Shown: in pieces, positions 22,719-40,427 of the stretch | Position numbering within the stretch: the stretch's first letter is position 1 | Layout of the letters: each line of letters opens with the position of its first letter | Program-made: the position numbers and the translations under genes | Origin: Sphingorhabdus sp. | GTDB lineage: Bacteria; Pseudomonadota; Alphaproteobacteria; Sphingomonadales; Sphingomonadaceae | DNA: 42,092 nt | Direction: 5' to 3' | Assembly: GCF_023910635.1 (NCBI RefSeq) | Contig: NZ_JAAVVZ010000022.1 | Location: 1-42,092 of the forward strand | The notes under the pieces: model-generated | What the model saw: only the letters and a program-made list of their open reading frames with translations | What the model was told of the DNA's origin: nothing | Database searches by the model: none

Positions 22719-23633
22719 ATGACCACCGAATCCAGCTTCATCAATCTCTTGCGTGGTTTTGCCACTGACCCTGCGGCGCGTGGGTTAATGGATGACGTTG
22801 CGGTGATCGACATCGGCGATGCGGCGTTGATTATCACGCATGACATGATGGCAGAGAGCTTGCATTTCCGGTCAAACGCCAATCCAGCCGACGTCGCGTG
22901 GAAATTATTGTCATCGAACCTGTCTGATTTGGCCGCAAAGGGCGCAGCGCCCGTTGGTGTCCTGCTTGGCTTCATGCTGGGTGACGATGCATGGGACAGG
23001 GCATTTGCCGCTGGGTTGGAAAAGGCGCTGGCGCATTACAACGTCGTTTTGCTTGGCGGAGATACCGTTGCCAATCGCGGCGACAAACGGGCGCTTGGGC
23101 TGACCGCTTTGGGCAGGGCAACCCATCGCCCCGTGCCATCGCGATCCGGCGCGCAAATTGGTGACATAGTATATGTGACGGGGACGCTCGGCGATGCCTT
23201 GGCTGGATTTGAACTCATTGACGCTGGTTTTGATGAGGTTGGGCCGCTGGCCGATGCGTTTAACCGGCCAGTCGCGCGGGTGGCCGACGGCCAAAAGCTT
23301 GCGCCGATTGTCACCGCGATGATGGATGTGTCGGATGGTTTGCTGCTCGATGCCGAACGATTGGCGACTGCCAGCCAGATTGGCTTAGAAATCGACCTTG
23401 CGTGCGTGCCCTTGTCGCCGCTCTATATCAGCTATCGCAGCGACAGCCTTGAAAGCCGGATGCAGGCGGCAAGCTGGGGCGATGATTATCAATTGCTGTT
23501 TACCGCGCGACCAGAACTGCCGCTGCCCGTGCAGGCAACCCCCATTGGCTGTGTATTATCCGGCGGCGGTCTCACCTTAAAAGACGGCGCGACTCCGGTA
23601 AAATTGCCGCCGATGCTCGGTTATCAACATTAA
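22719..23633 (+). CDS. thiL: Thiamine-monophosphate kinase
   Basis: ThiL phosphorylates thiamine monophosphate to the coenzyme thiamine pyrophosphate. The 304-aa product has the N-terminal metal/phosphate segments DDVAVIDIGDAALIITHDMM and SSNLSDLAAKGAAPVGVLLG, the LLGGDTVAN loop and the C-terminal MMDVSDGLLLDAERLA and SWGDDYQLLFTA motifs. It is separated from nusB by 56 bp. Its presumed terminator at 23909-23928 is displaced from the stop codon by an inserted MITE. Confidence 0.95.
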   Translation: MTTESSFINLLRGFATDPAARGLMDDVAVIDIGDAALIITHDMMAESLHFRSNANPADVAWKLLSSNLSDLAAKGAAPVGVLLGFMLGDDAWDRAFAAGLEKALAHYNVVLLGGDTVANRGDKRALGLTALGRATHRPVPSRSGAQIGDIVYVTGTLGDALAGFELIDAGFDEVGPLADAFNRPVARVADGQKLAPIVTAMMDVSDGLLLDAERLATASQIGLEIDLACVPLSPLYISYRSDSLESRMQAASWGDDYQLLFTARPELPLPVQATPIGCVLSGGGLTLKDGATPVKLPPMLGYQH

Positions 23634-23638
23634 TAAGC

Positions 23639-23905
23639 TAGGGTCAGGACCACTTAAATCCACCTTCGCGGTTTGAGACCATACTGTTCAGTGCAAGGCG
23701 GCAAGCGCAGGGCTTAGTGGTTCTAAGTCCAAGCTTGCCAACGCGGCAATGGACAGTATGGGTCAAATCCGAAGGACGCCAAAATGGCTTTGATCTCGAA
23801 ACAAAATGCCCTTGCAGGCAGAATAACTGCCTGCGGCGGCCATTTTCCTTCGATATCTTTGCCATTTTGACGCCGCGAAGGTGGATTTAAGTGGTCCTGA
23901 CCCTA
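23639..23905. mobile_element. Foldback MITE with 33-bp perfect terminal inverted repeats
   Basis: The two ends are exact reverse complements over 33 bp (23639-23671 and 23873-23905), reading TAGGGTCAGGACCACTTAAA inwards. The outermost TA on each side could be a duplicated TA target, as made by IS630/Tc1-type transposases (inference). The interior folds into two long imperfect hairpins: about 23670-23770 with apex CTTAG-TGGTT-CTAAG, and about 23775-23874 with apex GCAGGCAG-AATAA-CTGCCTGC. Single-stranded it would form a cloverleaf. No transposase or credible gene is inside. It lies between the thiL stop codon and a terminator hairpin. Confidence 0.88.
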
Positions 23906-23908
23906 AAC

Positions 23909-23928
23909 CGGCCCACAAGGCCGTTTTT
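23909..23928 (+). terminator. Probable thiL terminator
   Basis: CGGCC-CACAA-GGCCG followed by TTTTT. It would end the hisG-hisD-nusB-thiL transcript and now lies about 275 bp from the thiL stop because of the inserted element. The following stretch to 24037 contains no gene; only the AAAGGA ribosome binding site of hppA is recognised. Confidence 0.75.
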
Positions 23929-24037: not shown

Positions 24038-26164
24038 ATGTCTTTGTCAATTATGGCTATATTGTGCGGGCTTGTTGCCGTGCTCTATGGAATTATAACA
24101 AGCCGCTCGGTGCTTGCTGCATCGGCCGGTACGCCGCGGATGCAAGAAATCGCAGCCGCTATTCAGGAAGGCGCCGGCGCCTATCTGGCACGCCAATATC
24201 GTACTATTGCAATTGTTGGCTTCATCGTTGCGGTTCTGGTCGGTGTTTTCCTCGGGCCGTTGTCTGCGGTCGGCTTCGTCCTTGGCGCGGTGTTGTCTGG
24301 CGCGACAGGCTTTATCGGGATGAACATCTCGGTTCGCGCCAACGTCCGTACGGCGCAGGCCGCTAGCGAGAGCCTTCAAAAAGGCCTGACAATGGCGTTC
24401 AATGCCGGTGCGATCACGGGTATGCTCGTGGCTGGCCTTGCATTACTCGCGATTGCCGGTTTCTTTTATTACCTCACCGAAGTCGCAATGAACCTTCCGA
24501 ACAGCCGCCCCGTTATCGACGGTTTGCTGGCGTTGGCGTTCGGCGCATCGCTGATTTCGATCTTCGCGCGTCTGGGCGGCGGTATCTTTACCAAGGCTGC
24601 GGATGTCGGCGCTGACCTCGTCGGTAAGGTCGAAGCAAATATTCCTGAGGATGACCCCCGCAACCCTGCGACGATTGCCGATAATGTCGGCGATAACGTT
24701 GGCGATTGCGCCGGTATGGCGGCCGACTTGTTCGAAACCTATGTTGTGACCATTGGAGCAACGATGGTTTTGCTTGCCTTGTTGATGCCAGCTGCGATGC
24801 CAGCGGCCGAACTGTTGAACCTGATGTCGTTGCCATTGGTTGTTGGCGGTATCTGCATTCTGACGTCGATTTTGGGTACCTTTTTCGTCCGTTTGGGCGG
24901 CGGTACCAACATCATGGGTGCGATGTATAAGGGCTTTCTGGTCACCGCAGTCACTTCGATTCCGGCGATTGGGTATGTCACATACCAGACGCTCGGCGGC
25001 GATATGAATGCCGTAGTGACCTATAGCACCGGCGGTTTCACGGGTTGGACATTATTCTATTCGATGATGGTTGGCTTGGCCGTCACCGGGCTTCTGGTCT
25101 GGATCACCGAATATTACACCAGCACCAACTACCGCCCGGTCCGTTCGATTGCCAAGGCATCGGAAACCGGTCATGGCACCAACGTCATTCAGGGCCTGGC
25201 GATCAGCCTTGAATCCACAGCACTGCCAACTTTGGTTATCTGTGTTGGTATCATTGTCTCGTTCCAGTTGGCGGGCATTATCGGTATTGCGTTCGCTGCA
25301 ACCTCGATGCTGGCTTTGGCCGGTATGGTTGTCGCGCTCGACGCTTATGGGCCGGTCACCGACAACGCAGGCGGTATCGCTGAAATGTCTGAAATGGACA
25401 AATCGGTTCGTGAAAAGACCGACGCGCTCGACGCTGTGGGTAACACCACCAAGGCCGTGACCAAGGGCTATGCCATCGGTTCAGCGGCTCTGGCGGCGCT
25501 CGTTTTGTTTGGTGCTTATACCGCTGACTTGGCGTTCTACTCCGAGAAACTCGGCCTTGCTGAAGGCGGCGTCGATTTCACGCTCATGAACCCCTATGTC
25601 ATCGTCGGTCTGCTGCTGGGTGCATTGTTGCCATATCTCTTCGGAGCAATGGGTATGACCGCAGTCGGCAAGGCAGCCGGTGAAGTCGTGAAGGACGTTC
25701 GCGACCAGTTTGCGAACAATCCCGGTATCATGGATGGCAGCTCGAAGCCCGATTATGCCCGCACCGTTGATCTGGTGACCAAGGCGGCGATCCGCGAAAT
25801 GATCGTTCCTTCGTTGTTGCCGGTACTGGCACCAATCGTCGTGTATTTCGTGATCAGCTGGGTTGCAGGTCCCGCACAGGGCTTTGCCGCTCTCGGCGCA
25901 CTTCTGTTGGGTGTGATTGTCGGCGGTCTGTTCGTTGCTATCTCGATGACTTCGGGCGGCGGCGCATGGGACAATGCCAAGAAATATATCGAAGATGGCC
26001 ACCATGGCGGTAAAGGTTCGGAGGCCCATAAGGCAGCCGTAACCGGCGACACTGTGGGTGATCCCTATAAGGACACCGCTGGCCCAGCCGTAAACCCAAT
26101 GATCAAGATCACGAACATCGTGGCCTTGCTGTTGTTGGCGGCATTGGCGCATGGCGGCATGTAA
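24038..26164 (+). CDS. hppA: K+-independent membrane proton-pumping pyrophosphatase
   Basis: This integral membrane enzyme couples hydrolysis of cytoplasmic pyrophosphate to proton export. The 708-aa product is almost entirely hydrophobic helices, with the catalytic loop [15 protein letters not shown], the [20 protein letters not shown] acidic loop, [20 protein letters not shown] and [19 protein letters not shown] near the C-terminus. The diagnostic site reads [10 protein letters not shown]: Lys at 472 and Thr at 475 mark the K+-independent class, where K+-dependent enzymes have Ala in the Lys position. AAAGGA precedes the ATG. It is a single-gene unit with its own terminator. Confidence 0.97.
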
Positions 26165-31141: not shown

Positions 31142-31216
31142 GCCCGAGTAGCTCAGGGGTAGAGCAGCGGATTGAAAATCCGCGTGTCGGTGGTTCAAAT
31201 CCGCCCTCGGGCACCA
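31142..31216 (+). tRNA. tRNA-Phe (GAA)
   Basis: A complete cloverleaf: acceptor GCCCGAG/CTCGGGC, D arm GCTC..GAGC, anticodon stem GCGGA/TCCGC around TTGAAAA (anticodon GAA), and T arm with GGTTCAAATCC. The discriminator A and the CCA end are encoded in the DNA. Confidence 0.97.

Positions 31217-40351: not shown

Positions 40352-40427
<76 letters not shown>

Follow-up and report, generated by a model that had tools for sequence, protein, structure and literature searches.

What is the 267-bp folded sequence that lies between thiL and hppA in this Sphingorhabdus DNA (the window, meaning the whole stretch of 42,092 nucleotides that was analysed), and is it a mobile element that happens to have landed there or a structure maintained for the transcripts of its neighbours? 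The features on which the question turns are as follows.

22719..23633, + strand: gene on the upstream side, related to AIR synthase (PF00586/PF02769) and named thiL in the preliminary description
23639..23905, + strand: whole element, 267 bp with both TA copies, hairpin 1 coming first in this orientation
23639..23671, + strand: left terminal inverted repeat, its outer part TAGGGTCAGGACC being an IS5-type (ISKpn12-like) end
23671..23767, + strand: hairpin 1 (the part modelled in covariance model R1), with tip TAGTGGTTCTA at 23715-23725
23768..23776, + strand: possible mini-hairpin TCCGAAGGA at the junction of hairpins 1 and 2
23777..23872, + strand: hairpin 2
23873..23905, - strand: right terminal inverted repeat, a perfect complement of the left repeat
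23909..23923, + strand: terminator-like stem-loop followed by a T run, directly 3' of the element
24038..26164, + strand: downstream gene hppA, an inorganic H+ pyrophosphatase (PF03030), membrane pyrophosphatase

Overall, we consider it likely that this sequence is a non-autonomous transposable element with IS5-type ends, built around an independent hairpin core whose arms retain their complementarity at the level of DNA, and probably neutral at its position behind thiL. The preliminary description, made from the letters of the window, had pointed to perfect 33-bp inverted repeats bounded by TA, and on recheck the two arms (23639-23671 and 23873-23905, 33 nt each) are 100% complementary, the element both starting and finishing with TA. 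Its proposed extent of 267 bp also stands, but the terminal TA pair is better taken as a duplicated target, so that this length counts both TA copies. The cloverleaf with two hairpins that it had drawn agrees with the predicted fold, a closing stem bearing two long hairpins, for which the 267-nt strand gives -166.5 kcal/mol where shuffled sequences average -82.0 (sd 5.4; z -15.7), and a fold as good was reached in 0 of 200 shuffles. The longest open stretch inside the element is 82 codons and, as had been stated, no transposase gene lies within it; with a length under 500 bp and 33-bp terminal inverted repeats, it has the attributes of a MITE. The 23-base start of the end has only two matches in the window at up to three mismatches, where the chance expectation is 0.00. 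A known Rfam RNA was rejected as an identity, since no family exceeded its gathering score in a search of the element, and the elements of four relatives gave only matches far below gathering scores. Elsewhere in the window, two tRNA genes, at 31142-31213 (+) and 40355-40427 (-), are the only Rfam matches at gathering scores.

Mobility was assessed from the number and placement of copies. Searching the genome and its relatives with the end, as had been proposed, returned many copies in the host and in congeners. The host genome (3.05 Mb in 89 contigs) contains 126 partial or full matches to the element; 40 scored places match over at least 227 bp, the thiL copy included, and the others show 88-98% identity. 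Ends at up to three mismatches occur 84 times forward and 83 times in reverse, 167 in total, against 0 for a reversed-pattern control. With these copies in the host, and with the element dispersed in 25 of 61 relatives' genomes (host included, all in the genus Sphingorhabdus), the earlier view of a multicopy MITE is borne out, and the contrary picture of a structure found once, at this locus, falls away. Perfect 33-bp ends are present in 16 of the 31 host full-length copies examined. Host, related and plasmid loci together provide 117 distinct elements, 97 of them 266-271 bp long; the shorter ones measure 84, 143, 159, 163, 175, 180, 181, 186, 200, 207 and 224 bp, one is of 352 bp, and a 328-bp entry is a script artefact that pairs locus L009 with a neighbouring end. 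The 186-bp form (L062:2355-2540) has the same ends with a partly different interior, and lies 0.8 kb from a 181-bp copy.

Beyond the host, the distribution narrows or widens with the stringency of the search. Named records carrying the exact 20-base end (41 stretches) are assigned to Sphingorhabdus, Sphingomonadaceae or Sphingomonadales. An even sample of the order Sphingomonadales yields element matches in 36 of 396 genomes, which represent 10 of 84 genera, the full-length copies outside the genus being about 264-269 bp long and only 66-74% identical. Full-length copies are also found on plasmids of Sphingopyxis, Sphingobium and Novosphingobium. Carriage by phages was considered and rejected, there being no element match among the 50,697 records of a phage collection, though a full-length copy lies on an IMG/VR viral contig (L242:8315-8584).

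The element inserts at Y-TA-R with duplication of the TA. Among 73 distinct copies the base at -1 is T or C in 70 and the base at +1 is A or G in 71, and the comparison of occupied with empty alleles (35 raw pairings) disclosed clean empty alleles with a single TA at eight sites (L006, L013, L018, L033, L055, L057, L062 and L137, the last two being sites of shortened copies). The TA target claimed for the element is thereby supported, and empty sites, whose absence had been named as a point against mobility, are present in relatives. The thiL site itself conforms to expectation only in part: the element is indeed missing from six alignable relatives, but their empty site is CA rather than TA, so TA duplication is not demonstrated at thiL; seven further relatives' loci have no element in the stretch compared, and are too diverged for alignment. 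Other empty sites that are not TA comprise AA at one site shared by L110 and L117 and TT-like sequences at L023 and L071, and a CA empty allele is seen for L018 against L117. At four sites roughly 15-40 bp of one end persist in the empty allele, pointing to palindrome deletion and not to precise excision. Remnants such as TAGGGTCAGGACC-TA stand opposite a full or longer element in the pairs L024/L302, L007/L309, L019/L303 and L107/L328.

Which enzyme might act on these ends? The preliminary description had inferred an IS630/Tc1-type transposase working in trans. Duplication of a TA target is typical of the IS630/Tc1 family, and two IS630 types are in fact present in the host genome; we nevertheless find this partner scarcely credible and rejected it, as the match is to IS5-family ends and IS630 types are rare in the genus. 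Of 45 genomes of the genus, 5 (host included) gave a match to transposases of this type (PF13358) and the other 40 gave none, the element-rich genomes G003, G007, G020 and G034 being among the latter. Nor do the element ends coincide with the boundaries of either host IS630 type at the 7 of 13 loci examined, where an IS630-type element with the same ends, as the earlier reading anticipated, was looked for; at one locus (L178) the sequence GGGTCAGGACC occurs about 100 bp outside the IS630 copy.

Querying plasmids with the end consensus brought up ISKpn12 on p3521, which is annotated as IS5-like and whose ends TAGGGTCAGGACCCATTGA and TAGGGTCAGGACTCATTGC lie in a C-TA...TA-G site. Matching ends bound an 838-bp IS on Novosphingobium pP6W1, for which no gene is annotated, and an 842-bp IS in the congener G064, where overlapping frames correspond to DUF4096 (IS4/5 family) and DDE_Tnp_1. 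Complete IS5-family elements (ISKpn12-like) therefore share terminal sequence with the element, whose termini do match a transposase family, contrary to the other outcome that had been held to count against mobility. ISKpn12 itself would fall in the IS427 group, judging from its two-frame layout and from TA duplication as in ISPsp10, an IS427-group IS5 element reported to have duplicated TA next to a TAA (PMC4133298). IS5-type transposases related to these are present in 15 of the 45 Sphingorhabdus genomes. Among the host IS5 copies fetched, no complete IS has exactly the ends of the element, an absence that is uncertain in an assembly of 89 contigs; the IS5 that comes nearest lies at a contig edge and shows a single end, TAGGCTCAGGATG. 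Identity of the ends thus argues for movement in trans, in which an IS5-family transposase (ISKpn12-like, IS427-type) would recognise the outer 15-20 bp and insert the element into Y-TA-R, with the TA duplicated as seen at targets and empty sites.

The likeness to these IS is limited to the ends. BLAST of the 838-bp IS against the element aligned the ends only, plus one 13-bp and one 10-bp match, and hence gave no indication that the interior was derived from the IS by deletion. It is rather an independent core, composed of hairpin 1, the mini-hairpin and hairpin 2, and the properties of this core bear on the principal alternative, that the fold is maintained in the transcript, where it would serve upstream genes as a 3' UTR or a regulatory RNA, with mobility a secondary matter.

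The setting at thiL, together with the great stability of the fold, lends this alternative some substance. The stop codon TAA of thiL occupies 23631-23633, five bases separate it from the element, and the terminator-like stem follows at 23909-23923, so that the insertion indeed lies between stop codon and terminator, as had been described, and the element could possibly be part of the thiL 3' UTR. MITEs have been reported to alter mRNA stability (PMC10969869, PMC2229807). Furthermore, the stop codon of a predicted ORF (at least 120 codons) is the insertion site for 13 of 39 host-genome entries, locus L009 being entered twice. Among the non-coding sites 13 of 30 are of this kind, compared with 28 of 174 Y-TA-R positions taken as controls from those loci (Fisher p 0.002), a proportion that remains elevated with ORF cut-offs of 70 codons (13 of 26 against 37 of 147 controls; p 0.017) and 180 codons (8 of 30 against 21 of 222; p 0.012), this enrichment being a post hoc observation based on predicted, unverified ORFs. 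Because the element begins with TAG, insertions of this kind restore a stop; loci L002, L005, L009, L010, L016 and L025 hold examples of stop-restoring copies. Orientation, on the other hand, speaks against a role in upstream transcripts: 18 of 38 host copies sit between co-directional genes, and 10 of these are oriented with the genes and 8 against them.

More telling is the manner in which the arms have diverged. From the 97 full-length copies, less near-identical ones, we prepared an alignment (A1) of 52 diverse rows, in which double changes are seen at 75 of 93 predicted pairs. Structure predictions from a single strand are lopsided toward the wobble of that strand; in the 84 pairs that are predicted whichever strand is used, pairing holds in 96.6% of cells, and 68 of the 84, amounting to 728 cells, have changed on both sides. 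A one-base slide of the alignment arms lowers pairing to 43-45%, and 0 of 500 shuffles reach any of the covariation measures; these shuffles ignore relatedness, so that more weight attaches to the slides and to double changes seen in genera that are unrelated. Covariation in the two hairpins, which had been put forward as a check, is accordingly strong. If selection acted on a transcribed RNA, G-U should be favoured on the strand of that RNA. In the 84 strand-symmetric pairs, G-U (57) and A-C (61) are equally rare among 4364 cells, and the arm pairing therefore seems to be maintained at the DNA level rather than as RNA, though the pairs shared by the larger 97-row set show a mild G-U excess (68 against 47), a bias that is slight at most. 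Two hairpins, hairpin 1 in L116 and hairpin 2 in L202, moreover appear inverted in place when the alignment is judged by eye, which also weighs against a strand-specific RNA, and the loop of the mini-hairpin, scored by a simple pattern, reads GAA in 50 copies and TTC in 12. Overall, we regard maintenance of the element through its transcript as unlikely.

We favour instead a mobile DNA element whose arms stay complementary, most simply, by template-switch correction and palindrome inversion. Template switching at palindromes would jointly explain the paired changes, the missing wobble intermediates and the inversions; selection for a folded-DNA binding site may or may not add to the maintenance of the arms. 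At thiL the element would then probably be neutral cargo, carried between a stop codon and its terminator.

The core extends well beyond elements with these particular ends. Covariance model R1, trained on hairpin 1 from 29 of the 52 A1 rows plus L285 and L286, recovered the held-out loci L288, L245, L284 and L283 with E values between 7e-18 and 3e-10, and L248 with 7e-7, the held-out relatives found including Shewanella and Alteromonas plasmids. It matches 24 of 385 genomes (23 of 277 genera) in Alphaproteobacteria and, in Pseudomonadota as a whole, 84 of 398 (53 of 212 genera, host included), of which 65 lie outside Alphaproteobacteria; 68 of the 84 are at E of 1e-6 or below, and the weaker ones may be due to chance, the calibration being short. 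Terminal inverted repeats bounded by TA, of many kinds, surround 31 of the 52 R1 loci that were scanned and 0 of 96 control positions chosen within those loci, although two of these 31 are host-genome copies and 6 fall below 21 of 24 bases; around the other 21 the script detected none.

Several of these alternative ends can be related to transposons. A second type (type B), TAGGCCGTGAACTCATAA, is found on the same core in G016, G022 and G031, with a perfect inverted repeat in L051, and resembles the IS5-type IS of G064 (L278, TAGGCCGTGTACTCAT and TAGGCCGTGGACTCAT). Roseobacter plasmids carry the core with TAGGCTCTGGACCC ends. The end of L345, TAGGAGCCTGTCTGAGTAATGG, has 20 of 22 bases in common with the ends of plasmid-borne 1.47-kb elements from Methylobacterium and Xanthobacter, which are annotated with an IS1182-family and an IS4-family transposase, respectively; as a search result this IS1182-type match is weak (E 9), and it rests on its place at both IS ends, the sequence recurring inverted at both ends of each 1.47-kb IS with 2-3 mismatches. 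The ends of L343 and L335 had no informative match in plasmids. Finally, two 267-bp cloverleafs in genomes outside Alphaproteobacteria (L381:1362-1628 and L387:1469-1735) have ERIC-like ends, and in both of them the two hairpins match R1 in opposite orientation.

We take these sequence comparisons to mean that a hairpin core, itself conserved, is carried between transposon ends that can be exchanged. The element is MITE-like, and its novelty lies in a structured core conserved across Pseudomonadota and joined to ends that seem to belong to two transposase families or more. A bolder proposition, which we offer tentatively and would not yet favour, is that an ancient selfish core, distributed across Pseudomonadota, swaps its ends (IS5-type, IS1182-type and others) and is read as folded DNA by some enzyme. 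If this were true, many bacterial MITEs that look unrelated, perhaps ERIC-like ones too, would constitute one superfamily. MITEs are usually classed genome by genome, according to their ends; in the present case the ends vary and the core persists across bacterial classes, so that a classification by core brings out a family which one by ends conceals. The matches between ends also name candidate transposase partners. Whether structure is conserved at the DNA or the RNA level is usually left open where stable folds are assumed to act as RNA, and the equal rarity of G-U and A-C could serve as a simple discriminator between the two in other repeats.

In the open-licence literature searched (MITE, IS5, ISKpn12, hairpin, ERIC and REP) we recognised no paper describing this element family, and the tip and end sequences searched as text gave nothing relevant. 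Comparison with described systems is nevertheless instructive. REPs are palindromes of 20-40 bp, of which the CGTC class, with a CGTC tag, an 8-9 bp stem starting in AT and a loop of 4-5 bases, is the commonest in Alphaproteobacteria (PMC3733652). Like the element, CGTC and GTAG REPs and REPINs are DNA hairpins, often in inverted pairs; they differ from it (PMC3733652) in size, in architecture and in having no IS-type ends. The inner hairpins could be conceived as REP- or REPIN-like units moved single-stranded by a tyrosine (RAYT-type) transposase, the IS ends being a mere scaffold. This was first suspected from the palindromic GGTCAGGACC in the ends, and the imperfect hairpins with conserved internal loops, as well as the opposed R1 matches in L381 and L387, recall inverted REP pairs; yet 0 of 23 genus genomes searched has a Y1 transposase (PF01797), in contrast to REPIN/RAYT systems, and the clean empty sites signify insertion of the whole element at TA, so that we set this origin aside as very improbable.

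CIR, of Caulobacter and Brucella, likewise an alphaproteobacterial repeat, is built of two hairpin arms plus a linker; it is described as about 110 bp long (PMC2229807), with no terminal repeats listed and GANTC at a loop, a sequence absent from the thiL-site copy of the element. ERIC (IRU) of enterobacteria is, like the element, a short, TA-bounded MITE, and the ends of L381 and L387 (267 bp) resemble ERIC ends (TATACCC..ACTTCAAG.TGCA). However, ERIC is about 127 bp long (PMC2229807), and membership of the element in ERIC was rejected, R1 being negative on two ERIC copies (best 6.4 bits, filters off) and BLAST between the two yielding only short matches in the ends, the longest of 12/13 and 12/14 bases. 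MITEPye1 of Paracoccus yeei, compared by its description (PMC11578231), has IS1182-type ends and is comparable as a small alphaproteobacterial hairpin element with IS ends, the relative at L345 likewise being IS1182-type. With IS5-family MITEs (ISKpn12/IS427 group) the element has in common its outer ends, the Y-TA-R target, the TA duplication and the lack of a transposase gene; it differs from them in a core that shares only the ends with the IS tested, a structured module that is borne on other ends as well.
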